From an uncultured Oscillospiraceae bacterium (GTDB lineage: Bacteria; Bacillota; Clostridia; Oscillospirales; Oscillospiraceae), in the NCBI GenBank assembly GCA_944385175.1, contig CALWWB010000003.1:1-48447 (forward strand): 48,447 bases of DNA. The letters run 5' to 3'. A model generated the notes under the pieces. That model saw nothing but the letters and a program-made list of their open reading frames with translations, was not told where the DNA came from and did no database searches. The position numbers and the translations under genes are program-made. This document shows, one piece after another, positions 5,635 through 42,600 of the stretch. The stretch's first letter is position 1. Each line of letters starts with the position of its first letter.

Positions 5635-5640
5635 TTTGTA

Positions 5641-5668
5641 ATTCTATCACAAGAATAGGGTTTGTCAA
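5641..5668 (-). promoter_or_regulatory. SigA-type promoter for the alaS T-box transcript
   Basis: Minus strand TTGACA (5663-5668), a 16-bp spacer, then TAGAAT (5641-5646). It is positioned to start the T-box leader. Confidence 0.8.
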
Positions 5669-5672
5669 GCCT

Positions 5673-6896
5673 TTACCTGCATTTTCTCACTATGGACAGA
5701 CGGGGTGCAGGGCAAGGCAATTCCATATGTATCTCCATCATGGGGTGGCGGGTATCCTCTATCTCCTCACCCTGGGAGTTATACATATGCTCAACCCTGA
5801 ACTTCACCGGCCTTATATCCGGGCCGATGAGTTCCAGCTCGTCCCCTCTATAGAACTTGTTGCGCTGAGTGAGCAACGCTCTCCCCTCTCCGTCCCAGCT
5901 CTCCACTACGGCGGCCACATCCGCATCGCTGGAGTAGCTGGCTTGGGCATAGTGCTGTCCCGGGTAGCCATAGTAGAAGCCGGTACAATAGGGCCGGTGG
6001 CTGACCTTATCCGTCTCCTCCACCCAGAGCCTGTCCAGCTCTTCGCCCCGGGCAGCAGCGTCTATGGCATGGCGGTAGGCGTTGGTGACTATGGCGGCAT
6101 AGTAGGCGGACTTCATCCGTCCCTCTATCTTGAAGCTGCTTACCCCGGCGTCTATTAGCTCCGGCATATGCTCTATCATGCACATGTCCCGGGAGTTCAT
6201 GATATAGACGCCTTCCTTATCCTCTCCTACAGGGAAAAACTCTCCGGGCCGTGTTTCCTCCATAAGGCTGTATTTCCAGCGGCAGGGCTGGGAGCACTCT
6301 CCCCGGTTGGCGTCCCTGCCGGTGAGGTAGTTGGACAGCAGGCAGCGGCCGGAGAAGGACACACACATGGCCCCGTGGACAAAGGCCTCCAGCCTCAGCT
6401 CTTTTGGTGTGTTGGCCCTTATCTCACGTATATCCTCCATAGGGGTCTCCCGGGCCAGCACCACGGTGTCTGCCCCCATGTCATACAGGGCGCAGGCTGT
6501 GGCGCTGTTGATGACGCCCAGCTGGGTGCTCACGTGGAGCTTTGCATGGGGTGCATGGCGCTTGGCCAGCTCCATCACTCCCAGGTCGGCAATTATAAGT
6601 CCGTCCACCCCCAGGCTGTCCAGCCATTCCAGATAGCCCGGCAGTTCCTTCAGCTCCTCCTCCCTGGGAAGGGTGTTGCAGGTGACATAGACACGGCGGC
6701 TCAGGCCGTGGCAGAGAGCCACGGCCTTTTCCATTTGTTCCCTATTGAAATTTCCAGCAGAGGCCCTCATGCCGAATTTGCTTCCGGCCAGATATACGGC
6801 GTCGGCGCCGTAGCAGAGGGCCATCTCCAGCCGCTCCATGTCCCCCGCAGGAGACAGGAGTTCCAAATCATTATGAGTAATCCTGAGTTGCGACAA
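5673..6896 (-). CDS. U32 family protein, likely tRNA 5-hydroxyuridine synthesis protein (TrhP/YrrO-like)
   Basis: About 407 residues. The U32 signature is intact: EAFVHGAMCVSFSGRCLLS, then the cysteine-rich GECSQPCRW. An N-terminal ELLSPAGD barrel start and a C-terminal RNA-binding-like domain make it resemble YrrO/YegQ, which hydroxylate U34 of certain tRNAs using prephenate. Older annotation as a peptidase is less likely. The start is uncertain. No ATG precedes the conserved ELLSPAG in a sensible place, so a TTG at 6896 (GGAG 10 bases upstream) or a TTG at 6866 must be used. Either overlaps or abuts the mltG 3' end, implying coupling. mltG and U32 genes are also neighbours in other Firmicutes. 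Confidence 0.85.
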   Translation of the reverse strand: MSQLRITHNDLELLSPAGDMERLEMALCYGADAVYLAGSKFGMRASAGNFNREQMEKAVALCHGLSRRVYVTCNTLPREEELKELPGYLEWLDSLGVDGLIIADLGVMELAKRHAPHAKLHVSTQLGVINSATACALYDMGADTVVLARETPMEDIREIRANTPKELRLEAFVHGAMCVSFSGRCLLSNYLTGRDANRGECSQPCRWKYSLMEETRPGEFFPVGEDKEGVYIMNSRDMCMIEHMPELIDAGVSSFKIEGRMKSAYYAAIVTNAYRHAIDAAARGEELDRLWVEETDKVSHRPYCTGFYYGYPGQHYAQASYSSDADVAAVVESWDGEGRALLTQRNKFYRGDELELIGPDIRPVKFRVEHMYNSQGEEIEDTRHPMMEIHMELPCPAPRLSIVRKCR

Positions 6897-8238
6897 AGTT
6901 ATTGAACTCCGTTTCGTTGGTAAAGAATCTGTGCTCCCCGGTAGCGGTGTCCAGAGCATAGTAATAATAGCCGGTGCTCTCCGGGTTCAGAGCCGCGGTG
7001 ATGGAGGCCATGCCCGGGCTGCATATGGGTGTTGGGGGCAGGCCGGTGCGGATACGGGTGTTATAAGGGCTGTCGGTTTGGAGCATTTCGGCTGTGGGCG
7101 CTCCCTCATGGTCCGGGTACTCATAGAGCACCGATGCGTCTATGCCAAGCTGCATATTGGCATACAGGCGGTTGTAAATTACAGAAGCAATCAAGGCCCG
7201 CTCTCCGTCGTTGGCAGCTTCCTTTTCTATAAGGGAGGCCACAGTGACCACCTGGCGCATGGTCATATTCATATCAGCAGCCTGTTTGAGCATGTCTGCG
7301 GTCTGCTTATAGTAGAAAGTCTCCAGCATCTTGTTTATTGCGCTGGACGCCTGCATCCCCACATAGAACTCATAGGTGTCCGGGAAGAGGAAGCCCTCCA
7401 GGCGGGAGGCGTCTCCCTCCTCGATATCCTCCAGGAAGCTGTAGTTAAACTTGTCGTTTGCGGCAGATTCCATAAGCTCGTCATAAGAGCAGACGTTCAT
7501 CTCCTCCAGGCGCTGGAAAATCTGGCGCATGGTAAAGCCCTCCGGCAGCGTCACGTCCACGGTTACGGTAGAGGCGGAACCCGCCCGCATATTCTGGATC
7601 AGGGCACGGTAATCGAAGCTGGATTTCAGCTCATATTCTCCCGGGCTGACCTTTTCGCTGGCGGTGGATATTTTACAGAACACATTGAAAAGCCACTTGT
7701 ATTCAATCAGCCCGGCCTCTTTCAATGCGTCAGTGACATAGTCCATGTCCGCGTGTGTCACTCTCTCGGTGCCGGTCTTATTGCCTTCCTCATCAAAGGT
7801 GTCCACCGTCTCGGAAGTGAAAATGGACATGGGCAAAGTGACCACCGCAGTGAACTCATCCTTGTTCAGGGCCAGCATATCACTGGCGGCCATCCAGGCC
7901 AGGCAGGCCAGAATCACGCTGACGCAGGCGATAAAGACGAAATACATGATGCCACCCATGCAGCCTGAATGATACTCATGGCTCTGGCGCACCGGGTGGT
8001 AGTCCCGCTCCGACTCCTCGTCCCCCGTGTAGTTGCTGGGCCCTTGACCGGAATCGTCAGTGAGGAGCTTGTCCATGGCCTTCACCGGGTAGCGCAGCTC
8101 CTTGAGTTTTTCTCTTTTTCCCGATTTCTTTTTGGCCTTGCCCTTTTCTTCTTCCTTTTTCTCCTCATCCTCCGCGGAGTTTATGGCCTCGTCATGGATG
8201 CGGAATATCTCGTTTATCTTATCGATATCGCCTGACAT
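6871..8238 (-). CDS. mltG: Endolytic murein transglycosylase MltG (YceG-like)
   Basis: Membrane enzyme that cleaves nascent glycan strands and helps set their length. About 455 residues: a highly charged cytoplasmic N-terminus (1-90), one membrane helix (about 96-117), a LysM-like region, then the YceG catalytic domain. The catalytic motif ASLIEKEAANDGERALIASV (Glu about 340) and the C-terminal YNTRIRTGLPPTPICSPG are typical. The start at 8238 has GGAG six bases upstream. An ATG at 8250 is possible but has a weaker site. It overlaps the U32 gene by its last codons. The long acidic/basic cytoplasmic tail is larger than in enteric MltG but common in Firmicutes. Confidence 0.93.
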   Translation of the reverse strand: MSGDIDKINEIFRIHDEAINSAEDEEKKEEEKGKAKKKSGKREKLKELRYPVKAMDKLLTDDSGQGPSNYTGDEESERDYHPVRQSHEYHSGCMGGIMYFVFIACVSVILACLAWMAASDMLALNKDEFTAVVTLPMSIFTSETVDTFDEEGNKTGTERVTHADMDYVTDALKEAGLIEYKWLFNVFCKISTASEKVSPGEYELKSSFDYRALIQNMRAGSASTVTVDVTLPEGFTMRQIFQRLEEMNVCSYDELMESAANDKFNYSFLEDIEEGDASRLEGFLFPDTYEFYVGMQASSAINKMLETFYYKQTADMLKQAADMNMTMRQVVTVASLIEKEAANDGERALIASVIYNRLYANMQLGIDASVLYEYPDHEGAPTAEMLQTDSPYNTRIRTGLPPTPICSPGMASITAALNPESTGYYYYALDTATGEHRFFTNETEFNNFVATQDYS

Positions 8239-9367: not shown

Positions 9368-10084
9368 TCACACCCTGCTGAAAACCTCTCCGATCTTCTC
9401 ATGGATAATGAGGTCGGCATAGCTGTCGTAGGGTGTCTCGCTGAGATTTATCAGCACCAGCTTTTTCCCTCTGTAATAGTTTATAAGTCCCGCTGCGGGA
9501 TATACGTTCAGGGAGGTACCGCCGATTATAAGTATGTCCGCATTGCGGATATAGCTTATGGCGCTGCGGACAATGTCGTTGTCCAGAGGTTCCTCATACA
9601 GAACTATATCCGGACGGATGACCCCGCCGCAGGAGCACCTGGGAACACCGCTGCCCTTGTTAATTATCTCCGCCGGATAGGGCTTGCGGCAGCGGGAACA
9701 ATAGGCCCTCAGTATACTTCCGTGGAGCTCCAGAACATTTTTGCTCCCGGCAGCCTGGTGCAGCCCGTCGATATTCTGGGTTATCACCGCTTTCAGCTTG
9801 CCCTCCTGCTCCAGCTGGGCCAAACGCAGATGGGCCCTGTTAGGCTTCACCCCGTCTATCACCAGTTTCTCCCTGTGGAAACGATAGTACTCTGCCGGGT
9901 CTCTTTCAAAAAAGCTGCGGCTGAGTATAGTTTCCGGAGGGTATTTCCACTTCTGGTTATAAAGGCCGTCCACACTGCGAAAGTCCGGTATACCGCTCTC
10001 GGTGCTCACCCCGGCGCCGCCGAAAAACACGATGTTGTCGCTGTCTGCTATCATTTCCTTTAGCTGAGCTATCTTGTCTTCCAC
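9368..10084 (-). CDS. cobB: Sir2-family NAD-dependent protein deacylase
   Basis: Removes acyl groups from protein lysines using NAD. About 238 residues with GAGVSTESGIPDFRS (24-37), TQNIDGLH (102-109), catalytic His121 in ELHGS and four zinc cysteines (129, 132, 150, 152). The start is taken as the GTG at 10084, because the preceding AAGGCGGTGA is a near-perfect Shine-Dalgarno sequence at correct spacing. The in-frame GTG at 10093 overlaps that site and is unlikely to be used. It is first gene of a sirtuin-tmk operon with a strong promoter. Confidence 0.92.
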   Translation of the reverse strand: MEDKIAQLKEMIADSDNIVFFGGAGVSTESGIPDFRSVDGLYNQKWKYPPETILSRSFFERDPAEYYRFHREKLVIDGVKPNRAHLRLAQLEQEGKLKAVITQNIDGLHQAAGSKNVLELHGSILRAYCSRCRKPYPAEIINKGSGVPRCSCGGVIRPDIVLYEEPLDNDIVRSAISYIRNADILIIGGTSLNVYPAAGLINYYRGKKLVLINLSETPYDSYADLIIHEKIGEVFSRV

Positions 10085-10120
10085 ATATGTCACCGCCTTT
10101 TAAAATATATCAGCTTTTGT

Positions 10121-10149
10121 ATTATATACGAACAATGTGAACTTTTCAA
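10121..10149 (-). promoter_or_regulatory. SigA-type promoter for the sirtuin-tmk operon
   Basis: Minus strand TTGAAA (10144-10149), 17-bp spacer, TATAAT (10121-10126). It sits between the glycerate kinase stop and the sirtuin start. Confidence 0.82.
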
Positions 10150-10153
10150 TTAT

Positions 10154-11266
10154 TTAGAGATATTCCGGCAAGACTTTTGCCGCAAGCTCAGCAAGCTCCC
10201 GGCGGCAGCAGCCTCTCAGTTCTTCCATGTTCCGGCCCTCCGGGCCGCAGGCATAGAAGGCACTGATGCCTTCATTGAGGCACAGCTCCGCTCCTTTGCC
10301 CAGGCAGCCAGCCAGGGCGATGCAGGTAACTCCCTTGGCCCTGGCCCTCCTGGCAATGCCCACCGGCACCTTTCCCGCCATGCTCTGGCCGTCCAGCCTG
10401 CCCTCCCCGGTTATTACCAGCTCAGCCGTGTCCAGCATTTCGTCAAAGCCCACACTGTCCAACAGCAGCTCAATGCCCGGGGTCAGTTCCCCGTCAAGGA
10501 AGGCCAGCACTCCGGCCCCCAGGCCTCCGGCGGCTCCTGCCCCCGGAACTTCGGCTACATCTTTGCCCAGGTCCCGTTCTATCACCCGGGCAAAATGGGC
10601 CATGGCCTCGTTGTGTGGGGCTATTTGCTCCGGCCTCAGTCCCTTCTGGGGGCCGAATACTGCAGCAGCTCCCCGCTGCCCACACAGTGGATTGTCTACA
10701 TCACAGGCAGCTCTGACCCGGATATCCGTCAAGGTTTCAGGAGGGGCTATTCTCTCCACCCTGCCCAGGTTTTCTGCCAGGGGCATAACTTCCTCACCTG
10801 CGGCATCAAGAAATCTGTAGCCCAAAGCCGCCGCCATCCCAATGCCGCAATCATTGGTGGCGCTGCCCCCCAGGCCCAGCAGCAGCTTTTCACAGCCCAG
10901 AGATGCTATGTGCATTATGAGTTCACCCACCCCATAGGTGGTGGCAGTGAGGGGGGCAAGCTCCCCACCCATCAGTGGGAGTCCTGCGCAGGCGGCCATC
11001 TCCGTCACTGCGCTGCCGTCGGGCAGGATGCCGAACTCCGCCTCCACGGTTGACCCCTTGGGCCCGATGACGCTGAGGCTGCGGCTTTCCCCGCCGATCA
11101 GAGAAATATAAGAGGCGCACATACCCTCTCCCCCGTCGGACATGGGGATGCACAAAGTCTCCGCCTCAGGGCAGATTTTCTTCACTTCTCCGGCAATTAT
11201 ATTGCAGACCTGCTCTGCCTCAAGGGTGCCCTTGAAAGAGTCAGGTGCTATGACTATTCTTTTCAT
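10154..11266 (-). CDS. Glycerate kinase (GlxK/GarK family)
   Basis: A 370-residue glycerate 2-kinase type protein that phosphorylates D-glycerate with ATP, feeding glycolysis from glyoxylate, serine or sugar-acid routes. Family hallmarks include the start MKRIVIAPDSFKGTL, the SDGGEGM segment, GLGGSATNDCGIGMAAALGY (about 130-149) and TGEGRLDGQS (about 286). The ATG follows GGGAGGAAGC. It is the last gene of a group with the cyclodeaminase-like protein and prfC, and a hairpin in the gap may reduce read-through. No other glycerate pathway gene is nearby. Confidence 0.92.
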   Translation of the reverse strand: MKRIVIAPDSFKGTLEAEQVCNIIAGEVKKICPEAETLCIPMSDGGEGMCASYISLIGGESRSLSVIGPKGSTVEAEFGILPDGSAVTEMAACAGLPLMGGELAPLTATTYGVGELIMHIASLGCEKLLLGLGGSATNDCGIGMAAALGYRFLDAAGEEVMPLAENLGRVERIAPPETLTDIRVRAACDVDNPLCGQRGAAAVFGPQKGLRPEQIAPHNEAMAHFARVIERDLGKDVAEVPGAGAAGGLGAGVLAFLDGELTPGIELLLDSVGFDEMLDTAELVITGEGRLDGQSMAGKVPVGIARRARAKGVTCIALAGCLGKGAELCLNEGISAFYACGPEGRNMEELRGCCRRELAELAAKVLPEYL

Positions 11267-33928: not shown

Positions 33929-34798
33929 TCAGTCCTTTTCCACAAGTGATATGAGATACTGGCCGTATTCGGTCATTTTAAGCTCGGTGCCCAGAGCCAG
34001 CAGCTGGTCGTCACTTATCCAGCCACGGCGCCAGGCTATCTCCTCTATGCAGGAAACATAGAAGCCCTGGCGATTCTGCACCGTAGCCACGAACTGGGCG
34101 GCCTGGAGCATGCCCTCGGGAGTACCGGTATCCAGCCAGGCCATGCCGCGGCCCATAGGGCTCACCAGCAGCTCGCCCCGCTGAAGGTATACATTGTTTA
34201 CAGTGGTTATCTCCAGCTCACCTCTGGGGGATGGGCTGATATTCTTTGCCACATCCACCACACTGTTATCGTAGAAGTACAGGCCGGGAACGGCAAAGTT
34301 GCTCTTGGGATTTGCGGGTTTTTCCTCAATGGACACAACACGTTTGTTCTCGTCAAATTCTACCACGCCGAAAGCCTTGGGGTTTTTCACCTGAACACCG
34401 AAGATCATTCCGCCTTTTTCTATGGCTGCGCCCTTGCGCAGATAGTCCGAGAGAGCTTGGCCGTAAAACACATTGTCTCCCAGGATAAGACAGACCGAGT
34501 CGTCGCCTATAAATCGTTCCCCCAGGATAAAGGCTTCCGCCAAGCCCCGAGGCTGCTCCTGCACCACATAGTCAAAATTCATGCCCAGGCGCTTGCCGTC
34601 CCCCAGAAGTTCCCTATAATGGGGCAGATCCTCCGGAGTGGAGATTATCAGCACATCCCTGATACCTGCCAGCATCAGTACAGACAGAGGGTAGTAGACC
34701 ATAGGCTTGTCATAAATAGGCAGCAGCTGCTTTGAGACAACTCTTGTCATTGGATACAGGCGGGTACCTTTTCCGCCGGCAAGTATAATTCCCTTCAT
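33929..34798 (-). CDS. rfbA: Glucose-1-phosphate thymidylyltransferase
   Basis: Makes dTDP-glucose from dTTP and glucose-1-phosphate. 289 residues starting [18 protein letters not shown], with the nucleotide-binding GGKGTRL and LGDNVFYG. The ATG at 34798 is the family start, with GGAGG eleven bases upstream. An in-frame extension to 35014 crosses the promoter and is rejected. It heads the rfbA-rfbB operon. Confidence 0.96.
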
Positions 34799-34833
34799 TG
34801 CGATGCATACCTCCGTATTGTTTTTGACAATTG

Positions 34834-34863
34834 ATTGTACCATTCTCCCCTGTGCCCTGTCAA
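34834..34863 (-). promoter_or_regulatory. Promoter for rfbA-rfbB
   Basis: Minus strand TTGACA (34858-34863), 18-bp spacer, TACAAT (34834-34839). Confidence 0.75.
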
Positions 34864-34932
34864 TCTCTGTCACATATATGACGTATCCGGGAAATTTTCT
34901 GTACGCTGCCCCAATATACAGTGAAAAAGGGC

Positions 34933-34961
34933 TTGAATTATGAGAAAGCCTATGGTATACT
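34933..34961 (+). promoter_or_regulatory. Promoter for secG
   Basis: TTGAAT (34933-34938), 17-bp spacer, TATACT (34956-34961), divergent from the rfbA promoter. Confidence 0.75.
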
Positions 34962-35004
34962 TTCATGGCTGTGAAGCGTGTATACTTTGAAAGGGTTGAA
35001 ATAA

Positions 35005-35241
35005 ATGTCTGCAATCACCATCGTTCTCACCATTCTCCAGGTCCTCTCCGGTGTAGCCGTCACCGCTATCGTGCTCATGCAGAGCGGTAAGAGTGCCGGC
35101 CTTTCCGGTGCAATTTCCGGCGGAGCCGAGACCTTTATGTCCAAGGGCAAGGCCAAGACCTGGGACGCAAAGCTGGCAAAGGCCACAAAGTGGTTTGCCC
35201 TGGCTTTTGTCATCCTGACCTTGAGCCTGCACTTTGTTTGA
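35005..35241 (+). CDS. secG: Preprotein translocase subunit SecG
   Basis: 78 residues with two membrane helices (about 4-24 and 60-78) joined by the conserved [19 protein letters not shown] loop. It assists the SecYEG channel. Normal length. Monocistronic, with its own promoter and terminator. The usual partners rnr and smpB are not next to it here. Confidence 0.93.
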
Positions 35242-35261
35242 TTAGTCTGAGAACCAATCTG

Positions 35262-35314
35262 AAAACCCCCGCTGTCCGGCAAATGCCTGGCAGCAGGGGT
35301 TTTCTTTGCATAAA
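35262..35314 (+). terminator. Terminator after secG
   Basis: Imperfect long stem (AAAACCCC...GCTG with CAGC...GGGGTTTT) with a T-rich tail ending near 35308. Confidence 0.8.
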
Positions 35315-35486
35315 AATCGTCACCGAGAACAATATGCCGTCCGCCAACCCTGCGTCAAAACACCAAACCTCAACCCAGCGTCAGCGGGTTCGATTTGGAG
35401 AGGAGGAGCAAGGGGGCGGAGCGGATGGTGCTTTCTATTCCCCGTGAAATAGAAAGCGCCGGAGCAAAGCGGACTTTGCTCCGACG
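35315..35486. other. Gene-free stretch with hairpins between secG and the tRNA fragment
   Basis: I see no credible gene here. Two hairpins stand out: GGAGCAAAG/CTTTGCTCC with a 4-base loop (35461-35482), and a stem formed by GCTTTCTATT with its reverse near 35453 (about 35431-35460). On the minus strand they follow the CCA end of the tRNA fragment and could be relics of its terminator. Confidence 0.4.
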
Positions 35487-35519
35487 TGGTATGGCTGACA
35501 GGATTCGAACCTGCGACCT
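35487..35519 (-). pseudogene. 3' fragment of tRNA-Arg(CCG), relic attachment site
   Basis: 33 bases identical to the 3' end of the intact tRNA-Arg at 42524-42600: CCA, acceptor strand, T arm and start of the variable region. It breaks off at the junction with a hairpin-rich insert. This is a further copy beyond the pair that bounds the element and probably marks an older integration at the same tRNA. Confidence 0.7.
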
Positions 35520-35603
35520 GACTTGCCGCTATGCGGCAGTCAGCCTGCGGCGCATCCGGCAGGCTTCGCCTGCCTCAACGTGCTTCGCACCTGAAGGTCG
35601 CAG
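35511..35603. repeat. Nested hairpin element bounded by a tRNA-derived inverted repeat
   Basis: CTGCGACCT (35511-35519) pairs with AGGTCGCAG (35595-35603). Inside lie an 11-bp hairpin with TAT loop (35518-35543), GCCTGC/GCAGGC and alternative GGCAGGC/GCCTGCC stems (35543-35574) and GTGC/GCAC with a TTC loop (35580-35590). The right arm is itself a 13-base piece of the tRNA in reverse orientation. No coding capacity. Confidence 0.6.
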
Positions 35604-35628: not shown

Positions 35629-35661
35629 AAAAAAGGCAGCCCCATAGGGGCCGCCTTTTTT
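35629..35661. terminator. Bidirectional terminator beside attL, original tRNA-Arg terminator
   Basis: A-rich run, stem with CCCC/GGGG core and ATA loop, then a T run on both strands. On the minus strand it directly follows the tRNA CCA end, so it was probably the tRNA-Arg terminator before the element arrived. Confidence 0.85.
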
Positions 35662-35706
35662 GGTATGGCTGACAGGATTCGAACCTGCGACCTTCAGAGT
35701 CGGAGT
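35660..35706 (-). repeat. attL: 47-bp direct repeat of the tRNA-Arg 3' half
   Basis: Identical to 42523-42569, running from the CCA end through the T arm to the anticodon loop. Sequences diverge immediately after. It marks the left end of the integrated element. Confidence 0.92.
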
Positions 35707-35823
35707 ATTGTTCAGGACGTTTTCCATCGTTTCATATCGTGCTAAAAAGTATTGAAAAAACAGGATTTTTTGATTTAACTGTGCAGCTTCGTTTTGTATT
35801 GTAATTTATCTTTTTGCAACGTA

Positions 35824-35840
35824 GTTGAATTATTGTTGAA
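35824..35840 (+). repeat. Candidate integrase arm site, left
   Basis: GTTGAATTATTGTTGAA, 16 of 17 bases identical and in the same orientation as 42423-42439. Lies about 118 bases inside attL. Confidence 0.55.
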
Positions 35841-35848
35841 CTCCAACT

Positions 35849-36049
35849 TCAGTCCTCTATTTGCCCCTTATCTCTTTCCATTGTTTCATCAATTGCTCGG
35901 TTAATAAATGCATTCACGCTCTCGTCCCTGGAGTCTGCATGGGCCTTTATAGTTTCTTTTTTTCCTTTGGGCATTGTAATATTGATACGATCATAGTTCA
36001 ACTTGACATATTTGTTTACTGATGCTTGCTGTGCTTTTGTGACGGCCAT
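35849..36049 (-). CDS. Ribbon-helix-helix (Arc/CopG-like) DNA-binding protein
   Basis: 66 residues: a basic N-terminus, a beta-strand-like YDRINITMPKGKKETIKAHA and helices ending ESVNAFINRAIDETMERD. This is the pattern of Arc-family regulators found on Clostridia mobile elements. AAGGAG precedes the ATG and a strong promoter lies upstream. It is the last gene before attL. Whether it regulates the element, its own promoter or a toxin is unknown. No toxin-like partner is adjacent. Confidence 0.75.
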   Translation of the reverse strand: MAVTKAQQASVNKYVKLNYDRINITMPKGKKETIKAHADSRDESVNAFINRAIDETMERDKGQIED

Positions 36050-36108
36050 CGTCAGACTCCTTCCTATTGCAGCTTGGATGCATGTGCCGCTTTTCCTGTA
36101 ATAATTAT

Positions 36109-36137
36109 ATTATAGCGCATTTGTATATTGGTGTAAA
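36109..36137 (-). promoter_or_regulatory. Promoter for the ribbon-helix-helix gene
   Basis: Minus strand TTTACA (36132-36137), 17-bp spacer, TATAAT (36109-36114). Confidence 0.8.
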
Positions 36138-36173
36138 TATGTCTATACCGTCAATAGACTATTGGTGTAAATA
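36126..36173. promoter_or_regulatory. Candidate operator: two 14-bp direct repeats around an inverted repeat
   Basis: TATTGGTGTAAATA occurs at 36126-36139 and 36160-36173. Between them GTCTAT/ATAGAC (36141-36159) forms an inverted repeat. The first copy covers the -35 box of the RHH promoter, and the second lies just before a TATAAT at 36179 on the plus strand. This fits binding by an RHH repressor. Confidence 0.55.
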
Positions 36174-36253
36174 GTGTTATAATGAAACAGTAATATAGGG
36201 AGAGAGGGCAATATAAAAATTTTCGCCCTCTCATATAACAAAGGGGGATAATA

Positions 36254-36541
36254 ATGAAGACCGAGCAAGTTGAAAAAGCATGGCAGCAGCTTACTCCAAA
36301 ACATCAAGCCATTGTTCTTGAAGCCGTTGATATACTGTTAAGAGAGCAAGAAGCAAATGGGAAATTGAACAAGGCACAGGAGACAAGGAAACGGAACGAA
36401 CAGAAGCGCCGGGAGCGCTACGAGCGGGAGAATGCAGAACGGGAAGCGACGGCGGACGCTTTGCGTCTAGTTAGAGATCATCCAGACAGCACACCCGCTC
36501 AGATATTGGATGCAATTAAGATGATTAAAGAAATGAAATAG
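36254..36541 (+). CDS. Hypothetical charged helical protein of the element
   Basis: 95 residues, not recognised. The middle (about 35-65) is extremely rich in Arg, Glu and Lys (RKRNEQKRRERYEREN) and likely a long helix or coiled coil. The C-terminal DHPDSTPAQILDAIKMI looks like a small folded part. It is preceded by AAAGGGGG before the ATG and by a possible TATAAT at 36178-36183. It is convergent with the next gene, with a long shared hairpin between them. Confidence 0.65.
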   Translation: MKTEQVEKAWQQLTPKHQAIVLEAVDILLREQEANGKLNKAQETRKRNEQKRRERYERENAEREATADALRLVRDHPDSTPAQILDAIKMIKEMK

Positions 36542-36553
36542 GAAATTTACATT

Positions 36554-36601
36554 AATATTGCAAAGAGGTCATGGACTAACCCATGACCTCTTTGCAATAT
36601 T
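36554..36601. terminator. 21-bp perfect hairpin between convergent genes
   Basis: 36554-36574 is the exact reverse complement of 36581-36601, with a 6-base loop and A/T-rich ends. It should end transcription from both sides. It overlaps the stop codon and last codons of the minus-strand gene. Confidence 0.8.
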
Positions 36602-36890
36602 TTGCCAATCCAGACAGCGTTTTTATGAGTTGGATAGTTTCAAATGTTATGTTGTTTGATGCTTTGGAAACTGAATTTAAGTATTTTATCATTTGCTCAT
36701 CAGTTGTCTTTTCTGCAGCTTGCAGTGAGTATTTGCTCATAAAATAATTAATTACAATTATTTTGCCGACACTTATACCGGGGTTCCAGTTAGCTACTAT
36801 ATCTTTGTTTGGGGATTGGCTGAGTCGAAGCAGTTCCTCCCAGGCCGTTTTAAACTCTTTGTCGATTCTATCAGCGAGAAATTCTTCCAT
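36576..36890 (-). CDS. Hypothetical protein of the element
   Basis: 104 residues, not recognised. Predicted largely helical: EEFLADRIDKEFKTAWEELLRL at the start is given here only in part, and the C-terminus ends in ETIQLIKTLSGLAKY. No signal peptide or membrane helix. A GAGG-type site precedes the ATG. It follows the DUF6291-like gene by 60 bases, probably in the same transcript. Its last codons lie in the terminator hairpin. Confidence 0.65.
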   Translation of the reverse strand: MEEFLADRIDKEFKTAWEELLRLSQSPNKDIVANWNPGISVGKIIVINYFMSKYSLQAAEKTTDEQMIKYLNSVSKASNNITFETIQLIKTLSGLAKYCKEVMG

Positions 36891-36950
36891 TTTGCTGCCC
36901 TCTCTGTGTCTTTTTTTCGTGCACTTTTTCGCTCGTTTTTGTTAGAAATT

Positions 36951-37418
36951 CTATTTGTTTTTCATAAATTCCATGAATCCTTCTGCTGGCGATGGAGTAT
37001 TTTTCGCCCTAAACTTGTACTCTGCATAGCGTTTTCTCCCTGCTCCACACTTTTTCTGAAAAATTCCGGAAAAACTTGATGGATGGGAGGGCAGCTTTGC
37101 CCTTGTAATAATATTGCTTATTGTTTCTGCAAGCCCCCCTATAGGGGGGCTATTTTCGCCCCACCTTTTTATGGTTCCGCCTTTTCCGCATGCCACAGAG
37201 TCCTCAAAGTCTCTTATGCTTTCGTCGATATATGGTCGAATCACGCAAAAAACCGTAAAGGCTCCGGGCGTGAGTGAACCGGTGTCCACCTCGTCCCCGT
37301 CAAAATATGCAAAAGCGGCTTTTAGGCCCTTCCCTGCATCTTCGTCCGATACTGAGGAAATCGCCGCCCGTTGATGATACAGCATTTTCCACCATGTGGC
37401 CCTCTTTTCCTTCGGCAT
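36951..37418 (-). CDS. DUF6291-like phage/mobile-element protein
   Basis: 155 residues. The N-terminal part (KMLYHQRAAISSVSDEDAGK, then FAYFDGDE and FCVIRPYIDESIRDFED) resembles DUF6291, a family common in phages and often beside replication genes. The ATG shares a base with the tape-measure stop (TAATG), so translation is coupled. A 20-bp GC-rich palindrome lies within the gene at 37132-37151. A replisome-organiser-like role is only a suggestion. Confidence 0.55.
   Translation of the reverse strand: MPKEKRATWWKMLYHQRAAISSVSDEDAGKGLKAAFAYFDGDEVDTGSLTPGAFTVFCVIRPYIDESIRDFEDSVACGKGGTIKRWGENSPPIGGLAETISNIITRAKLPSHPSSFSGIFQKKCGAGRKRYAEYKFRAKNTPSPAEGFMEFMKNK
37132..37151. repeat. 20-bp perfect GC-rich palindrome inside the DUF6291-like gene
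   Basis: AGCCCCCC and its reverse complement flank TATA. It is conspicuous in AT-rich DNA and codes for the PPIGGL part of the protein. It could be a protein-binding site or an origin-like element. Confidence 0.55.
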
Positions 37419-38797
37419 TAGCTCACTCCCATTCTCGATGATACTCTTTGATTTTGCGCTTCCCTGGCGATGTCCTGGAGCTCGCTGATACCAGAGGCAT
37501 CCACGTTGACGTTGTAATTATTCACTGTTGTGTTGGTGGATCCGGCGCCATTCCCCACCCATGCGCCTATTGTCGGGTCGTATACGCTGGTTTCCAGGGC
37601 GTCGGCATAATAGAGCTGCTGCTGGTGAGACAACATGCCATACTCGACATTCAGGCCCATAGCCGTGTTGTATTTCTCCGTGTCTCTTGTTATAACGGCG
37701 ATAGCAGCGTCTCCCACATCGGCGATAAATGCCAACAGGCTTGCCACCGGCTTTAAAACCGCCGCAAAAGCTGGTAAGAATACTTCAATCAGAGAGGCCA
37801 GAGGGTCAAGCAGCATTATGGCAGAGTCCAAAACTGCGCCGAAGCTCTCCACCACTCCGCTGTCGGAAAAAGCCTCGCCCACTCGCTCCAGGAAATCCAC
37901 GCCTTTATCAGCGGCGTTCTGGAAGTGTGGGATAAGGTCGGCCAGGATGTTGTCCTTGAACTCGCCCATTTCCTCGCCCAGCTGGGCGGTCATTTCTTGC
38001 AGAGCCAGCTCGTTCTCCCGGTGGAGCATGAGCTGTTCGTTGTTCTTCTCAAAGGTTTCCGCCGCCGAGTCATACGTCCCGGCCAGCGTCTCCATTATGA
38101 GCTGGTTTCGCTCCGCCTCCGTGGAGCACTCTGCCAACAGGCCGTTGAACTCGTCCTCGTTTATGCCTGCCCAGTTAAGGGCATCGGCCAGCACACCGGT
38201 CACGGTGCCAACCTTTGCCGTCTCGTTGCTTGCCTCGATTAGTCCGTTTATCGGCAGAGCGTCGCCGAAGGTGCCGTATACACCAGCGGAGATCTTCGTC
38301 CATTTCTCCACGTCCTGCTGGTTTTCGGCCAGGGTTGCCAGCAGCTGAGAGGCCTCCACGGCGGTGTCGCTGTCCCCAAGGATTTTGTAAAAGTCTGAAT
38401 ACGCTTGATTGGCTGTTGACAGGCTCAGGCCCTGACTTTCAAATGCGGTGTTGAGCTTGGCCTGGGAAGCCCTGTAATCCTCCGTGGCCTCGTCCAGGTT
38501 ATATACCCACGACGCTACAGAGCTAAGAATTTCAAAGCCCTTCTCCAGCGCAGAGGCCATAAGATTACCGCTAATAACGGCCTTCTGCATCTTGTCGGCC
38601 AGACTATCAACGCCGCCTCCGGCATCTTCAGCTCCCTTGCCAAACTGCTTGACCTTTTCACCGGACTGCTTTGTCTTTTCTCCAGCACCCTCTGCGGACT
38701 CGCCCAGGCCGTCAAACTTCTTTTCGGCGCTGTTGACGTTCTTCTCATACTCCGATGTGTCCAGGGTTATTGTGGCAAAAAGCTCAAATAGGTTCAA
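37418..38797 (-). CDS. Phage tail tape-measure-like protein
   Basis: 459 residues. N-terminal FELFATITLDTSEYEKNVNS is typical of tape-measure proteins of tailed phages. It is followed by Gly/Glu/Lys-rich coiled-coil (EGAGEKTKQSGEKVKQFGKG), then long alanine-rich helices. Hydrophobic stretches LLDPLASLIEVFLPAFAA and VASLLAFIADVGDAAIAVI follow, and the tail NNYNVNVDASGISELQDIA, then SSRMG, is also typical. It is short for such proteins. The start is TTG, preceded by GGAGGTGG at good spacing. It is the only virion-like gene in the element, translationally coupled to the DUF6291-like gene. It could set tail length for a helper phage or be a co-opted remnant. Confidence 0.75.
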   Translation of the reverse strand: MNLFELFATITLDTSEYEKNVNSAEKKFDGLGESAEGAGEKTKQSGEKVKQFGKGAEDAGGGVDSLADKMQKAVISGNLMASALEKGFEILSSVASWVYNLDEATEDYRASQAKLNTAFESQGLSLSTANQAYSDFYKILGDSDTAVEASQLLATLAENQQDVEKWTKISAGVYGTFGDALPINGLIEASNETAKVGTVTGVLADALNWAGINEDEFNGLLAECSTEAERNQLIMETLAGTYDSAAETFEKNNEQLMLHRENELALQEMTAQLGEEMGEFKDNILADLIPHFQNAADKGVDFLERVGEAFSDSGVVESFGAVLDSAIMLLDPLASLIEVFLPAFAAVLKPVASLLAFIADVGDAAIAVITRDTEKYNTAMGLNVEYGMLSHQQQLYYADALETSVYDPTIGAWVGNGAGSTNTTVNNYNVNVDASGISELQDIAREAQNQRVSSRMGVS

Positions 38798-39156
38798 TCC
38801 GCCACCTCCAACATATAAGCTGGTATTTTGAATGGTGTTCTTTGTACGGCTTTGTAAAGTTCTTGTCCCTTAAAATGTGATTTTAAAATTCCTAGTTTCT
38901 CCTAGTTTATATTTGAGCTCTTGCTTTTACATTAAAAAGCATCCATATTCTTTTCTGCCACTACTTTCCAGCAATTTTCATTTTGGCTATTGTACTAATA
39001 CAATAGCCTGTAGCAAAAATTCATTGACTTAATGCAATATGTTTTCTGTTTTGCATGGTCTCGCTTATTGCATTGATACTATATCTGTTATCTCACATAT
39101 TAAACTGACCTTATTGTATTGATACAATAGATTTAATAAATTTTACCAGGGGGTAT
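38798..39156. other. AT-rich gene-free region holding an iteron-like array
   Basis: No gene seen on either strand. It contains the four palindromic repeats listed below, and a CCTAGTTT direct repeat near 38890-38910. It follows the replication-initiator-like gene, the place where PICI origins lie. Confidence 0.6.
38987..39130. repeat. Four imperfect 20-bp palindromic repeats (iteron-like)
   Basis: Copies at 38987-39006, 39021-39040, 39065-39084 and 39111-39130. Consensus YTATTGYAYTRATACWATAK. The first and last are near-perfect palindromes (CTATTGTA...TACAATAG); the second is most degenerate. Start-to-start distances are 34, 44 and 46 bases. Likely binding sites for the replication protein or a regulator. 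Confidence 0.7.
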
Positions 39157-39612
39157 CTATTTTTTTATTGTCTTTTTTCTGCACATTGCTAAAGTCATTT
39201 CAGACGGCTTTATCTCAAAATCCTGCGTGCCATATTTTTGCCACATGGAAGAAAATTGGTATATGGATTTTGTGCGAGTAGTGGCTCCACATTCTTCGCA
39301 TTTTATAAATCCTGCTCCAATTAAAGCCGACATGTCCCTATAGAATCCCCTTGCATTGGATTTCTCATAGAGCCCGTACAGGCCGCACCATTTTGCTTGA
39401 GACATAGTAAAGCATAACGGGTCGCCGTTGGGCTTATTTTTTTCAGCGTAGTATTGGGCTTTGCAGTATAGATAAAGTCTCTGCTGCTGAGCACTAAGAG
39501 ATCTCCAAGCATTTGACAGCAACATAGACATATACAGATTAGAGCTAGTATCCGATTTACTACCGCTGCTTTCAAAAGGCTTTTTCTGATATGGCGTTTT
39601 CCGTTTGCTCAT
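39157..39612 (-). CDS. Replication-initiator-like winged-helix protein
   Basis: 151 residues. The central part, LLSNAWRSLSAQQQRLYLYC, then FTMSQAKWCGLYG, SNARGFYRDMSALIGAGFI and TKSIYQFSSMW, follows the winged-helix pattern of short replication initiators/regulators of Clostridia mobile elements (A-W-x-x-L...LY...Q...G...L...AGFI). GGAGG precedes the ATG at 39612. A longer extension to 39729 would overlap upstream coding. Position directly before the iteron array supports a replication role; no catalytic motif is visible. Confidence 0.55.
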   Translation of the reverse strand: MSKRKTPYQKKPFESSGSKSDTSSNLYMSMLLSNAWRSLSAQQQRLYLYCKAQYYAEKNKPNGDPLCFTMSQAKWCGLYGLYEKSNARGFYRDMSALIGAGFIKCEECGATTRTKSIYQFSSMWQKYGTQDFEIKPSEMTLAMCRKKTIKK

Positions 39613-39796
39613 TATTGTCTGCCTCCGGCATCTGCCATATAACGATTTCATAGCCCTGTTTAAAAGAGAGGCGGGCCAATATAACAGATTCATCCCATGC
39701 AAGATTGTCAAACCGCATAAGGCTGACATCTAAGTTGCCCGCCTCCATAAATGAGCCGTTAATGGCTATTACAGTAAATAGCTTATCTTCATGCAT
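39572..39796 (-). CDS. Small hypothetical protein of the element
   Basis: 74 residues, not recognised. It overlaps the next gene start by 41 bases. The ATG at 39796 has GGAGG upstream. The core (NLDVSLMRFDNLAWDESVIL, then KQGYEIVIWQMPE) looks like a small alpha/beta domain. The acidic tail is encoded in the overlap. It sits between the winged-helix and the initiator-like genes, so it probably belongs to the replication/regulation block. Confidence 0.6.
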   Translation of the reverse strand: MHEDKLFTVIAINGSFMEAGNLDVSLMRFDNLAWDESVILARLSFKQGYEIVIWQMPEADNNEQTENAISEKAF

Positions 39797-39800
39797 TAGC

Positions 39801-40193
39801 CTATTCCTCCCCCTTGATATTCTCTTCGTTCTCTTCAATAGCCTCAGCAACTGCTAGAATTTCTTGTGCTCTATGGCGCAAAGAACGCACGCAATAGTTG
39901 CGTTCCTGGGGAGAGGATGGGAGATAATATCCATCTCGATTATTGCTTAGAATAGGCGTGTGATGCCGCCGCTCTATGTGAATTTGCTGTCGAACCTCTC
40001 GCTCTGTCCATCCAGTAATTTTCACCAAGTCCTGAAGATGTAGGCCATTTTCCTGACCTTCCATTAAAAGCCTTGATATTGGCCCGTGCCATATGATACA
40101 ATTATTTTGTGGATCGCCGTTTGCTGAGTGACGTTCCCGCTCTGCCTGTCCTGCTGCGCTACCAGCAGGACAGGCTTTTTTGTTTTTATTCAT
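39801..40193 (-). CDS. Winged-helix/HTH protein of the element
   Basis: 130 residues. GPISRLLMEGQENGLHLQDL, followed by VKITGWTEREVRQQI, then PILSNNRDGYYLPSS, has the helix-turn-helix plus wing pattern common next to excisionase genes on Clostridia elements. The C-terminus is acidic. The ATG overlaps the excisionase stop. An antisense terminator hairpin lies in the first codons (40144-40190). Confidence 0.6.
   Translation of the reverse strand: MNKNKKACPAGSAAGQAERERHSANGDPQNNCIIWHGPISRLLMEGQENGLHLQDLVKITGWTEREVRQQIHIERRHHTPILSNNRDGYYLPSSPQERNYCVRSLRHRAQEILAVAEAIEENEENIKGEE
40144..40190 (+). terminator. Strong intrinsic terminator antisense to the winged-helix gene
   Basis: 13-bp perfect stem GCCTGTCCTGCTG/CAGCAGGACAGGC (40144-40156 with 40163-40175), 6-base loop, then six Ts, G and five Ts. 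It functions only in plus-strand RNA, yet no plus-strand gene ends here. Confidence 0.8.
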
Positions 40194-40374
40194 TCACTTT
40201 TGCCCCCTCACGGCTTTGTTTGTCCAGCAATTCCGCTAAGGCATCAACATTTACAAGGAAACGGTTGCCTGTACTGATTCCAGGGCAAATTCCTTGTTCC
40301 ACCATAAGTCTAATGCGATGCTCAGTAAGGATTCCCGTAGCTGCTGTTTGCCGAATAGTCTTGAATGTTGGCAT
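40186..40374 (-). CDS. xis: Excisionase
   Basis: 62-residue small winged-helix protein: MPTFKTIRQTAATGILTEHR, MVEQGICPGISTGNRFLVN, then DALAELLDKQSR. This is the Tn916-type Xis pattern. It bends DNA and directs the integrase toward excision. GGGG-rich ribosome site. First gene of the minus-strand operon, divergent from the repressor. Confidence 0.85.
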   Translation of the reverse strand: MPTFKTIRQTAATGILTEHRIRLMVEQGICPGISTGNRFLVNVDALAELLDKQSREGAKVNE

Positions 40375-40404
40375 ATCATTTTCCCCTTTCTTTGAAATAC
40401 TTCG

Positions 40405-40433
40405 TTGACTTTCGTCTGACTATATGTTACCAT
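40405..40433 (+). promoter_or_regulatory. Promoter for the repressor-integrase operon
   Basis: TTGACT (40405-40410), 17-bp spacer, TACCAT (40428-40433). It overlaps the xis promoter on the other strand. Confidence 0.6.
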
Positions 40434-40448
40434 CTTAATTAAGATAAA
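40419..40448 (-). promoter_or_regulatory. Promoter for the excisionase operon
   Basis: Minus strand TTTATC (40443-40448), 18-bp spacer, TATAGT (40419-40424). Confidence 0.5.
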
Positions 40449-40470
40449 AAAATATCTATAAAATATCTAT
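40432..40470. promoter_or_regulatory. Candidate repressor operators
   Basis: A 14-bp perfect palindrome ATCTTAATTAAGAT (40432-40445) covers the -35 of the xis promoter and -10 of the repressor promoter. AATATCTAT is repeated at 40451 and 40462, eleven bases apart, about one helix turn. Suited to a cI-like repressor switch. Confidence 0.55.
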
Positions 40471-40492
40471 TTTTTATGTGAGCGGGAAATAT

Positions 40493-41227
40493 ATGAATAA
40501 AATTTTATTCTCCAGTCGTTTGGCTGATTTAAGAAAGAAGAGAGGCTTTAAGACGCAATATGCGCTGGCAAAGGCGTACAACGAAAAATTTCCAACCAAG
40601 CGACGTAATGATGCATCTGGAAATGAGGGTGACTTTGGCGGCATTTTTGGTACAATCAAAAACTATGAAAATCCAAATAGAGAAAATGGGCAAAAGTTAA
40701 GTGTTGTATGCAATCTATGTGAACTTTTGGACTGTGATATCGATTATTTGATAGGGAAAATTGAAGTCCCGCAACATGAAACAGCAGATATAATGGCATT
40801 AACGGGACTAAGTGAAAAAGCGGTCGAAACCATATTATTGTTACGCAGAGATAACCAAATGGATTGGGGGCTTGATGCTCTAAATTTTTTGCTTGAAACT
40901 ACAGACTTTCTGGCCTTGCTGTACTATATGATTCAGTTTTCCACTACTGACGAAGGTTACATAGAATATGGGCGTGAGCATGTAAAAAAAAGAGATGTTT
41001 TTGAAATGAGGTTGATCGACTATATCAAGAAAATTGCGAACAATCTTGCTGAAATAAACAAAAACAAGCCTGATGATAGGCATCTGTACAAAGTGTATAT
41101 ATCGGCCTATATGGAGAAAAGCAACTCAGGAATTAAGTATTCTTTGGCTGGCTTTCAGAAAGCGATGGAAGCAGATGGTCTATTTTTTGACCCTAAGTCC
41201 TTTGAAGGGAGAGAACAGAATGGCTAA
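40493..41227 (+). CDS. cI-like XRE-family repressor
   Basis: 244 residues. The N-terminal HTH (SRLADLRKKRGFKTQYALAK, about 6-25, then FGTIKNYENPNRENGQKLSV) is XRE-like with an insertion between helices. The C-terminal part (about 95-240) is helical and not a LexA-type protease domain. ATG 40493 is preferred over GTG 40478, because GCGGG lies before it. It overlaps integrase by 8 bases, so both are made from one transcript. It probably holds the xis operon silent, as Stl does in SaPI islands. Confidence 0.75.
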   Translation: MNKILFSSRLADLRKKRGFKTQYALAKAYNEKFPTKRRNDASGNEGDFGGIFGTIKNYENPNRENGQKLSVVCNLCELLDCDIDYLIGKIEVPQHETADIMALTGLSEKAVETILLLRRDNQMDWGLDALNFLLETTDFLALLYYMIQFSTTDEGYIEYGREHVKKRDVFEMRLIDYIKKIANNLAEINKNKPDDRHLYKVYISAYMEKSNSGIKYSLAGFQKAMEADGLFFDPKSFEGREQNG

Positions 41228-42413
41228 TATTCAAGAGCGCCGAGACAAACACGGCAAGCTGATTTCCTACTCCATCCGTGTTCATCGTGGCCGTGGGCCG
41301 GACGGCAAGCAGCTCAAGCCGTATACAGCCACCTTTGAGGTCTCCCCTACATGGACCGAAAAAAGCGCAAGAAAAAAGGCTGAGGCTTTCGCCGCAACCT
41401 TTGAAGAAAAGTGCAAAACAGGCATAAGCTCAGATTGTCGTCTGACCTTTCAGCAATACACTGAGTATGTTTTAGAGCTTAAAGAGCGCCGGGGAGACAA
41501 GCACACCACCCTTGCAGACTACAAGACCATGACCCCTAGAATATTCAGCGCTATAGGGCCCATAAAGCTCCGTGACCTGCGTCCCGCTCACCTAAATGAT
41601 TTCTACGCTGAGCTTGCCAAAGAAGGCGCAAATAAGCGCACAGGCGGGAAACTGAGCAATACGACAATCCTCAGATACCACCGTCTGATCTCCATAGTTT
41701 TGTCCCAGGCAGTAAAGGAAGGTCTGATAGCCATTAACCCCGCCTCAAGAGCAGAGCCGCCTAAAGCTGACAAGAAAGACCCCAACTACATCCAGGCCGA
41801 GACAATCCCGCTCATATTTGAGGCATTGAAAACCGAACCCATAATGTGGCAGGCCCTTGTAAATCTGCTCTTTATAACCGGCTGCCGCCGTGGTGAAATA
41901 CTTGGCCTGAAGTGGCAGAATGTAGACCTGGACAACTACCGGCTGTATATCTGCAACACAATTTCCTATACCTCGGACCGGGGCATTTACGAAAGCACGC
42001 CCAAGACCAAAAGCAGCGTCCGGTATATCTCTATCCCTGCTGAAACCACTCAGATGCTCAGGCAATACAAGCTGTGGCAGACAGAGGAGATATTGAGGCT
42101 TGGCACATACTATCAGCGCAACGACTACCTCTTTTCCCAGGACAACGGGCAGCCCATGAGGCCGGACAGTGTTACACAGTGGCTCTCTAAATTCAGCAGA
42201 CGTCACAGGCTGCCTCATCTTAATCCCCATGCTTTCCGGCACACAATGACCTCAATGCTGATTTTCGGAGGTATGGACACCGTGAGTGTTTCAAAGCGTC
42301 TGGGTCATTCTCAGGTCAGTACAACCACTGATATATATGCCCATACCATTGCTGAAGCAGACAGACGTAACGCTGATTTATTGGGAGAAATTCTCCTAAA
42401 AAGAGCATTGTAA
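41220..42413 (+). CDS. int: Tyrosine recombinase / integrase
   Basis: 397 residues. N-terminal arm-binding domain (SYSIRVHRGRGPDGKQLKPY), core-binding SAM-like domain (about 75-165) and catalytic domain with Arg in TGCRRGEILGLKW, HAFRHTMTSML (HxxR), LGHSQVSTTTDIYAH (nucleophile Tyr). GGGAGAG precedes the ATG inside the repressor gene. It lies 110 bases from the attR copy in the intact tRNA-Arg, the usual arrangement for self-integrating elements. Confidence 0.95.
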   Translation: MANIQERRDKHGKLISYSIRVHRGRGPDGKQLKPYTATFEVSPTWTEKSARKKAEAFAATFEEKCKTGISSDCRLTFQQYTEYVLELKERRGDKHTTLADYKTMTPRIFSAIGPIKLRDLRPAHLNDFYAELAKEGANKRTGGKLSNTTILRYHRLISIVLSQAVKEGLIAINPASRAEPPKADKKDPNYIQAETIPLIFEALKTEPIMWQALVNLLFITGCRRGEILGLKWQNVDLDNYRLYICNTISYTSDRGIYESTPKTKSSVRYISIPAETTQMLRQYKLWQTEEILRLGTYYQRNDYLFSQDNGQPMRPDSVTQWLSKFSRRHRLPHLNPHAFRHTMTSMLIFGGMDTVSVSKRLGHSQVSTTTDIYAHTIAEADRRNADLLGEILLKRAL

Positions 42414-42422
42414 AATAGTCTT

Positions 42423-42439
42423 GTTGAATTATAGTTGAA
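42423..42439 (+). repeat. Candidate integrase arm site, right
   Basis: GTTGAATTATAGTTGAA, matching 35824-35840 at 16 of 17 bases. In the circular form the two would flank the core in the same orientation. Confidence 0.55.
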
Positions 42440-42472
42440 TTTTTAGCCCATTTTATGAGGAAGAAGAAAAAT

Positions 42473-42521
42473 AAAAAGCTAGTATTCAAACCCGCAAAGG
42501 CTTGATAATACTAGCTTTTTT
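42473..42521. terminator. Bidirectional terminator between integrase and tRNA-Arg
   Basis: 14-bp stem AAAAAGCTAGTATT / AATACTAGCTTTTT (42473-42486 with 42507-42520). It ends the integrase transcript and the tRNA-Arg transcript. Confidence 0.85.
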
Positions 42522-42522
42522 C

Positions 42523-42569
42523 TTGGTATGGCTGACAGGATTCGAACCTGCGACCTTCAGAGTCGGAGT
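42523..42569 (-). repeat. attR: 47-bp direct repeat within tRNA-Arg
   Basis: Identical to 35660-35706. The element supplies this 3' part of the tRNA, so the gene remains functional. Confidence 0.92.
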
Positions 42570-42600
42570 CTGACACTCTATCCAGCTGAGCTACAGCCAC
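42524..42600 (-). tRNA. tRNA-Arg (anticodon CCG)
   Basis: 77 bases with encoded CCA. Acceptor GTGGCTG pairs with CAGCCAT (G-U at the first pair). D stem GCTC/GAGT-type, anticodon stem TCAGA/TCTGA, loop CTCCGAC giving CCG, T arm GCAGG-TTCGAAT-CCTGT. It reads CGG codons. Integration site of the element. Confidence 0.95.

Follow-up and report, generated by a model that had tools for sequence, protein, structure and literature searches.

Why does a small element integrated in a bacterial tRNA gene carry a homologue of a phage tape-measure protein (TMP), and what could such a protein do for it? The element lies in contig CALWWB010000003.1 of an uncultured Oscillospiraceae bacterium (assembly GCA_944385175.1), of which positions 1 to 48,447 were analysed (48,447 nucleotides; the window). 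It spans 6,863 bp (approximately 6.86 kb) within a tRNA-Arg gene, between exact 46-nt repeats. Two features of a phage-inducible chromosomal island (PICI)-like element are found: integration with flanking att repeats, and integrase (int) and repressor genes divergent from a putative excisionase (xis) and replication (Rep-like) module. The gene content supports the view, put forward in an earlier sequence-only reading of the window, that this is a PICI-like satellite with the TMP homologue as its sole recognised virion gene; relatives with the same modules carry a small terminase (TerS) gene instead. The presence of a TMP where several relatives carry a DNA-packaging gene suggests that the element may rebuild the tails of a helper phage.

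With Pfam and PHROG, none of the other named open reading frames (ORFs; 11 in all) was recognised as a virion gene and no capsid gene (the hallmark of capsid-forming PICIs [cf-PICIs]) was matched in the element; its named ORFs also gave no match to head, portal or large terminase (TerL) genes. No primase or capsid-size gene was recognised in it, and PADLOC returned no convincing match. Neither a tail assembly chaperone (TAC) nor TerS was convincingly matched (best E values of 0.003 over 23 aa and 0.021 over 29 aa; two TAC-like references were used for TAC).

The TMP homologue is encoded at 37418..38797 on the reverse strand, in an ORF that stays open for 459 codons from a TTG start with a ribosome site (GGAGG) upstream. 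The best match of the 459-aa product is phrog_23464 (3.6e-73), a family labelled unknown, and it also matches the tail tape measure family phrog_58 (6.9e-7). Using tblastn, 6 of 50,697 phage records match, none covering 80% of the length in one place. The 440-aa homologue of phage MT835551.1 (33.7 kb) has 53.7% local identity, and 51% identity in a full alignment that is colinear to both ends; in our own reading of this unannotated record, a 99-aa ORF precedes it, 653-aa and 349-aa distal-tail-type ORFs follow it, and terminase-, portal- and head-type ORFs are present elsewhere. In the Acutalibacteraceae phage NatCom_11578, an 886-aa homologue preceded by one small ORF is located between an annotated tail protein and Dit. 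Judging by annotated neighbours and our own ORF reading, the phage homologues belong to the tail operon, flanked by tail-tube/chaperone-type genes on one side and distal tail genes on the other. Core identity reaches 61% in viral contigs, 192 stretches of which yielded 160 relatives to a TMP profile (A5; the best 80 were used); a scan with the single 459-aa sequence matched 0 of 13 stretches of viral contigs and 0 of 20 of genome contigs. A TMP-profile match to FtbJ (5e-4) was also observed. The predicted structure is mostly helical, in a low-confidence model (mean pLDDT 37).

The sequence-only reading had proposed a comparison with the TMPs of co-resident prophages (shared ends, shorter middle), but the genome gave no other TMP match. 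In the alignment with NatCom_11578, the core matches the 886-aa protein, whose long repetitive middle is lacking from the element's protein; beside five same-genus prophage TMPs (596–624 aa), the protein is shorter and resembles their C-terminal part. TMP PHROG matches were obtained in all three same-genus prophages checked. Given the end-to-end phage alignment, the tail-operon homologues and the longer prophage TMPs, the 459-aa protein is, as judged from these alignments, a complete short TMP homologue and not a fragment. As a rule of thumb, 459 aa would correspond to a tail of about 70 nm, and 596–624 aa to one of about 90 nm. A 31-aa stretch before the TMP start was considered as the leftover of an upstream gene, but gave chance-level matches only and was rejected as such. 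Separately, a phage scaffold (L017) was seen to contain two consecutive TMP-like ORFs of 578 and 674 aa (3219–4955 and 5571–7595) with similar N-termini.

The TMP stop codon overlaps the ATG of a DUF6291 gene (36951..37418, reverse strand) by 1 nt (TAATG). The Pfam match of the DUF6291 protein (4.3e-6) is just at the gathering score, and the protein is C-terminally truncated: it is 59–66% identical to the N-terminal part of a longer relative in a second satellite, G839 (described below), aligning over residues 1–99 of 155 only, and phrog_15768 gives 0.15 for the element's protein versus 9.9e-27 for that of G839. Apart from the G839 relative, no match was found in phages or in 198 other genomes. 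Another element, G066 (L316), has a phrog_15768/phrog_16304 protein between its winged-helix and TerS genes (10037–10672). The G+C content of the TMP-DUF6291 block, including most of the TMP gene, is 51–58% versus 30–48% in its surroundings (integrase, 48–52%), and the edge falls inside the DUF6291 ORF. Because of this G+C step and the confinement of the alignment to residues 1–99, the block looks like a gain by recombination.

Such a gain need not have been useful. In the main rival explanation, the element acquired a TMP-DUF6291 fragment, perhaps in place of TerS, by recombining with a phage or with another satellite; the TMP gene would have no selected role, and the element may be crippled for packaging. 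We consider this fortuitous capture possible, at somewhat under one chance in three. The truncated DUF6291 gene, the G+C-rich block and the lack of a convincing TerS fit it, as does the distribution of the TMP: eight of the 149 nearest genomes match it including this one, the five other matches in the genus are all in prophages, and tblastn against 14 loci of related elements gave no match at E ≤ 1. However, both TMP termini are kept and all 459 codons are open behind a good ribosome site, even though the best end-to-end relative is 51% identical (the donor may be unsampled).

The remainder of the element can be placed among relatives in the genus. A tyrosine integrase gene (41217..42413, forward; PF00589 9.5e-25, phrog_1 2.8e-69) adjoins the tRNA gene, and with the gene for a 249-aa repressor-like protein (40478..41227, forward; phrog_8 8.3e-6; weak homologues adjoin int in several further elements) it faces, on the reverse strand, those for a 62-aa putative excisionase (40186..40374; weak HTH_17, with a 61% homologue in the same order in G053), a 130-aa winged-helix-like protein (39801..40193; phrog_2113 2.4e-11; ~25–54% homologues in other elements), the 74-aa backbone protein orf69 (39572..39796; homologues in G053, G051 and G006) and a Rep-like protein (39157..39612; 151 aa from ATG 39612). 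Between the Rep-like gene and the TMP gene, an A+T-rich gap (~30% G+C) contains three 18-bp palindromic iterons within 142 bp (38988..39129; copies at 38988–39005, 39066–39083 and 39112–39129), which may form the origin; the three palindromes account, over both strands, for six of the seven window matches to the iteron pattern (0.52 expected; the pattern was derived from the repeat itself). TMP and DUF6291 lie beyond the iterons, followed by orf104 (36576..36890, reverse) and orf95 (36254..36541, forward), both without a significant family match, and at the end opposite int by the gene for a 66-aa ribbon-helix-helix (RHH) protein (35849..36049, reverse; phrog_13890 3.5e-20; 64–72% homologues opposite int in G066, G045 and G006). 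The ORF list, repeats, tRNA scan, Pfam and PHROG thus bore out the element as first described, with att sites at tRNA-Arg, a divergent layout, iterons and a TMP-like gene coupled to a DUF6291-like gene. For the protein described as initiator-like, the layout agreed and that role stays putative: Pfam, NCBIfam and PDB sequences offered no credible counterpart of the Rep-like protein (PDB matches of its profile were chance matches to spike proteins), and it matched nothing in 50,697 phage records or in plasmid records.

In the genus, a Rep-like profile found matches in 6 of 102 genomes including this one, strongly in G053, G051 and G024 (54–72% identity) and weakly in G006 and G071, and 6 of 394 in the order, again including this one, where the other matches were weak. 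Among Genome Taxonomy Database contigs it found eight loci, three of them apparently G053, G051 and G024; the loci come from metagenome-assembled genomes labelled as uncultured Clostridiales, Clostridia and Oscillospiraceae, with goat and roe deer gut among the sources. The single Rep-like sequence matched 0 of 7 stretches of viral contigs. The closest backbone relative, G053, is bounded by 46-nt tRNA-Pro repeats 7.2 kb apart and carries int, xis, winged helix, orf69 and Rep (72%), with the replication-side genes in the same order and TerS and a sigma factor gene beyond them. When an orf213-like cargo protein was searched for in the genus, 7 of 102 genomes matched; six regions were opened, that of G041 being incomplete at a contig end, and five hold compact elements: G066 (tRNA-Thr), G045 (tRNA-Met), G006 (tRNA-Ser), G048 (tRNA-Thr) and G073 (tRNA-Ser). 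These span 6.2–8.3 kb between repeats of 23–46 nt; each has an int homologue, the winged helix recurs in G066, G006 and G048, and the RHH protein is opposite int as noted above. With the 4.8-kb G051 element, the small elements of this genus cover 4.8–8.3 kb, and tRNA repeats were found at 9 of 10 loci tested (the window, G839 and eight relatives), L058, at tRNA-Arg(ccg), being the exception. The shared modules (int, repressor, xis, winged helix, orf69, Rep-like and RHH opposite int) indicate that the element is a member of a mosaic set of small tRNA-integrated satellites. Since tblastn did not find the Rep-like gene in several relatives, the family is a loose mosaic. The compact 6–8 kb tRNA-integrated elements of this genus with TerS and orf213-like cargo are at loci L316, L317, L318, L320, L321 and L035.

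In six relatives (G053, G066, G045, G006, G048 and G073), the region occupied here by TMP-DUF6291 holds TerS, as recognised by PHROG (best E values 2.5e-6 to 8.4e-10). Five of the six came from the orf213 search, so that they are not an unbiased sample and have orf213 by selection. TerS was also found in the Rep relative L057 (2.1e-12). The cargo of G024 is a phrog_2412 protein, and G051 has no cargo. A wider scheme is possible, though less likely than not: satellites of one mosaic family may swap single-function hijacking cassettes in one region, TerS redirecting the packaging motor and a stand-alone TMP re-measuring the tail via the helper chaperone. If true, one swapped cassette would decide the assembly step at which a satellite exploits its helper.

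Could the element instead be what remains of a full prophage at this tRNA gene? The TMP is a phage gene, and the site has been used before, as shown by an incomplete third repeat of the tRNA-Arg 3' end at window positions 35482–35532, 174 bp outside the element. The latter suggests an older integration scar; a 152-nt stretch in the sister genome G003 (L061 318–469) matches the region of this copy at 93%. However, G053 has the whole backbone and other relatives have parts of it, and no phage structural gene was recognised in these, by a limited reference set that overlooked TerL-like ORFs of L182 and, beyond the element itself, of L320; and, as noted, no phage record matches the Rep-like protein. 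The att repeats are intact: a 51-nt direct repeat (35656–35706 and 42519–42569; 98%) is exact for 46 nt, at 35661..35706 at the far end and at 42524..42569 within the tRNA-Arg(ccg) gene (42524–42600, reverse strand), and these 46 nt are identical to the 3' end of that gene. The site is empty in the same-genus sister G047 (L063), where the left flank (window 33965–35268) lies ~150 bp from the tRNA gene, and among the five loci examined the left-flank sequence of G075 (L062) directly abuts the tRNA gene. A deletion remnant, which the sequence-only reading had named as one case that would overturn its proposal, is accordingly disfavoured, and we rate it as very improbable.

Our best reading, which we hold tentatively and at slightly less than even confidence, is that the satellite TMP enters helper tails and makes them chimeric. 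In the presence of an active helper siphophage, the element would excise and replicate; its TMP, made after the replication genes, would recruit the tail chaperone and tail-tube protein of the helper and be built into tails instead of the helper TMP. Particles bearing the satellite would then have chimeric tails, probably shorter ones if the five genus prophages are a guide. As no TerS is detectable, the element would depend on the helper terminase for packaging. The intact TMP ORF with its ribosome site supports this reading, as does a second type of TMP-bearing satellite whose TMP has a dN/dS of 0.15 (see below). Several observations weigh on the other side. As neither TAC nor TerS was convincingly matched, both would have to come from the helper, and this weakens the model; the G839 type has its own TerS and chaperone-like gene, and the Vibrio elements discussed below encode a TAC. 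The truncated DUF6291 gene and the G+C-rich block ending inside it resemble a raw recombination junction. This backbone is known with a TMP from one genome and dS is saturated, so that selection on the focal TMP is not measurable. Of the Rep relatives, six have a cargo region that can be read (L053 and L054 are truncated): TerS is present in G053 and L057 and was not recognised in G024, G051, L058 or L059. A tblastn search located no Rep-like gene in G066, G045, G048 or G073, nor at 1e-3 in G006 (weak match only). No resident helper was detected in the host genome (90.6% complete), which gave no match to one TerL profile and no other TMP match.

The same protein might also act against phages. 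In this alternative, the satellite TMP competes with that of a helper or invader for chaperone and baseplate, resulting in mis-measured or aborted tails, as a defence and not for the element's own particles. The resemblance of its C-terminal part to genus prophage TMPs and the lack of a convincing TerS or TAC agree with this, and tail assembly is a known target of defence (Tab, Tai and Rta; PMC10884400, PMC11364771, PMC12987554). In the passages considered from these papers, however, Tab targets the invader TMP and Rta the helper TMP as separate inhibitors, and a TMP homologue in such a role is not described. TerS, which several relatives hold in the region in question, serves transfer. We regard interference as improbable.

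Helper-tail takeover gains from a second satellite type. G839 (L114 5931–18753) is a 12.8-kb element with 23-bp repeats at tRNA-Val, encoding int, repressor, DUF6291, a DnaB-like helicase, RusA, TerS (phrog_2538 2.9e-6), orf84, a chaperone-like protein (named by position and mutual resemblance within the type, without a family match), a TMP of 704 aa, orf94, orf213 and a sigma factor. No head gene was recognised in satellites of this type with the limited reference set. The type, seen at L114, L158 (7067–16670) and L246, comprises, besides G839, the partial element of G892 (the contig ends in DnaB), which has the same block, and a 12.87-kb IMG/VR contig, which has it without a detected sigma gene. 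Between the G839 and G892 TMPs, the non-synonymous and synonymous rates are 0.196 (dN) and 1.33 (dS), a ratio of 0.15, which in this pairwise comparison shows purifying selection. Sigma-70-like genes lie beside the TerS or TMP cargo in two satellite types (L035 7699–8520 and L114 6050–6616) and are possibly a late switch.

TMP searches matched 20 of 400 genomes of the family and 16 of 149 around G839, mostly in loci with phage structural genes (28 regions opened). In a 93-row tree of the TMP core, eight satellite-labelled rows, which include three short fragments and a doubtful one (L182), require three label changes forced by well-supported branches. The focal TMP has a long branch (0.49) and no fixed position. 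L182 (1–4810), an IMG/VR fragment, carries TerS, an adjoining TerL-like ORF, an orf213-like ORF and a TMP, and no head genes separate them; the N-terminus of its TMP resembles that of the focal protein (49% over 1–296). Without L182, we infer at least two captures of TMPs by satellites of this bacterial family, which, with purifying selection in the other type, argues against a merely fortuitous capture. As the G839-type TMPs (complete frames of 687–710 aa) are longer than those of nearby phage rows (553–559 aa), tail shortening is not a general rule. A 9.3-kb circular S. variabile record (L012) was rejected as a satellite, as it holds phage head- and tail-type ORFs by our own reading. A locus of G814 beside tRNA-Gln (L115 912–10264), with an integrase, a TAC-like gene, a transposase, RHH, a Bro-N-like ORF and a TMP, is probably a decayed element, and in G860 (L162) a contig end holds a TAC-like gene and the first part of a TMP.

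Among known systems, the element resembles PICIs and Staphylococcus aureus pathogenicity islands in its int and repressor facing xis, its Rep-like gene with iterons and its tRNA-type att, and several relatives carry TerS. TerS or a capsid-remodelling gene is found in many, but not all, PICIs; the element differs in having a TMP, and neither a convincing TerS nor a primase or capsid-size gene was recognised in it. Unlike cf-PICIs, which carry capsid genes, it has no recognised capsid gene; cf-PICIs with putative tmp genes are given in the legend of Extended Data Fig. 10 of PMC12987554, and these share a putative satellite tmp gene with it. Ccm of SaPIbov5 (PMC8569155) is likewise encoded by a satellite, is homologous to a morphogenesis protein of the helper and alters the geometry of particles, but is a capsid protein and not a tail ruler. 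The G839 type is similar in its TMP without recognised head genes, its DUF6291 gene and its int-repressor side, and has homologues of TerS, orf213 and sigma in common with G053, the relative nearest in backbone; it differs in its DnaB-like replication, its own TerS and chaperone-like gene, and a 680–704-aa TMP from a separate capture.

The nearest parallel is with the PLE satellites (PLEs) of Vibrio, described in a 2026 paper as the first satellites known to put their own proteins into chimeric tails (PMC12987554). According to the passages considered, PLE1, PLE4 and PLE11 have a tmp-tac cluster, the PLE11 TMP is built into virions to the exclusion of the phage TMP with tails ~10 nm shorter, and in three PLEs transduction falls by 96–99.9% once tmp is deleted. 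PLEs also encode a tail chaperone (and PLE11 a baseplate hub) and exploit a contractile-tailed phage; the present 6.9-kb element has no convincing TAC and is found among Clostridia elements with another backbone. The sequence-only reading suggested a new kind of tail-remodelling satellite: a satellite with a TMP it is, but given the PLEs the kind is not new in principle, and the Clostridia lineage and the TMP in the TerS region of relatives are the new part. Among the titles and abstract openings listed from open-licence PMC papers (preprints excluded), none concerned these Clostridia elements; satellite TMPs came up there in PMC12987554 (PLEs and cf-PICIs). A TMP in a ~7-kb element of another lineage, in gut Clostridia, and its independent occurrence in a second satellite type support tail takeover as a recurrent satellite strategy, and these elements offer compact systems for asking how a foreign TMP affects tail length, helper yield and transfer.

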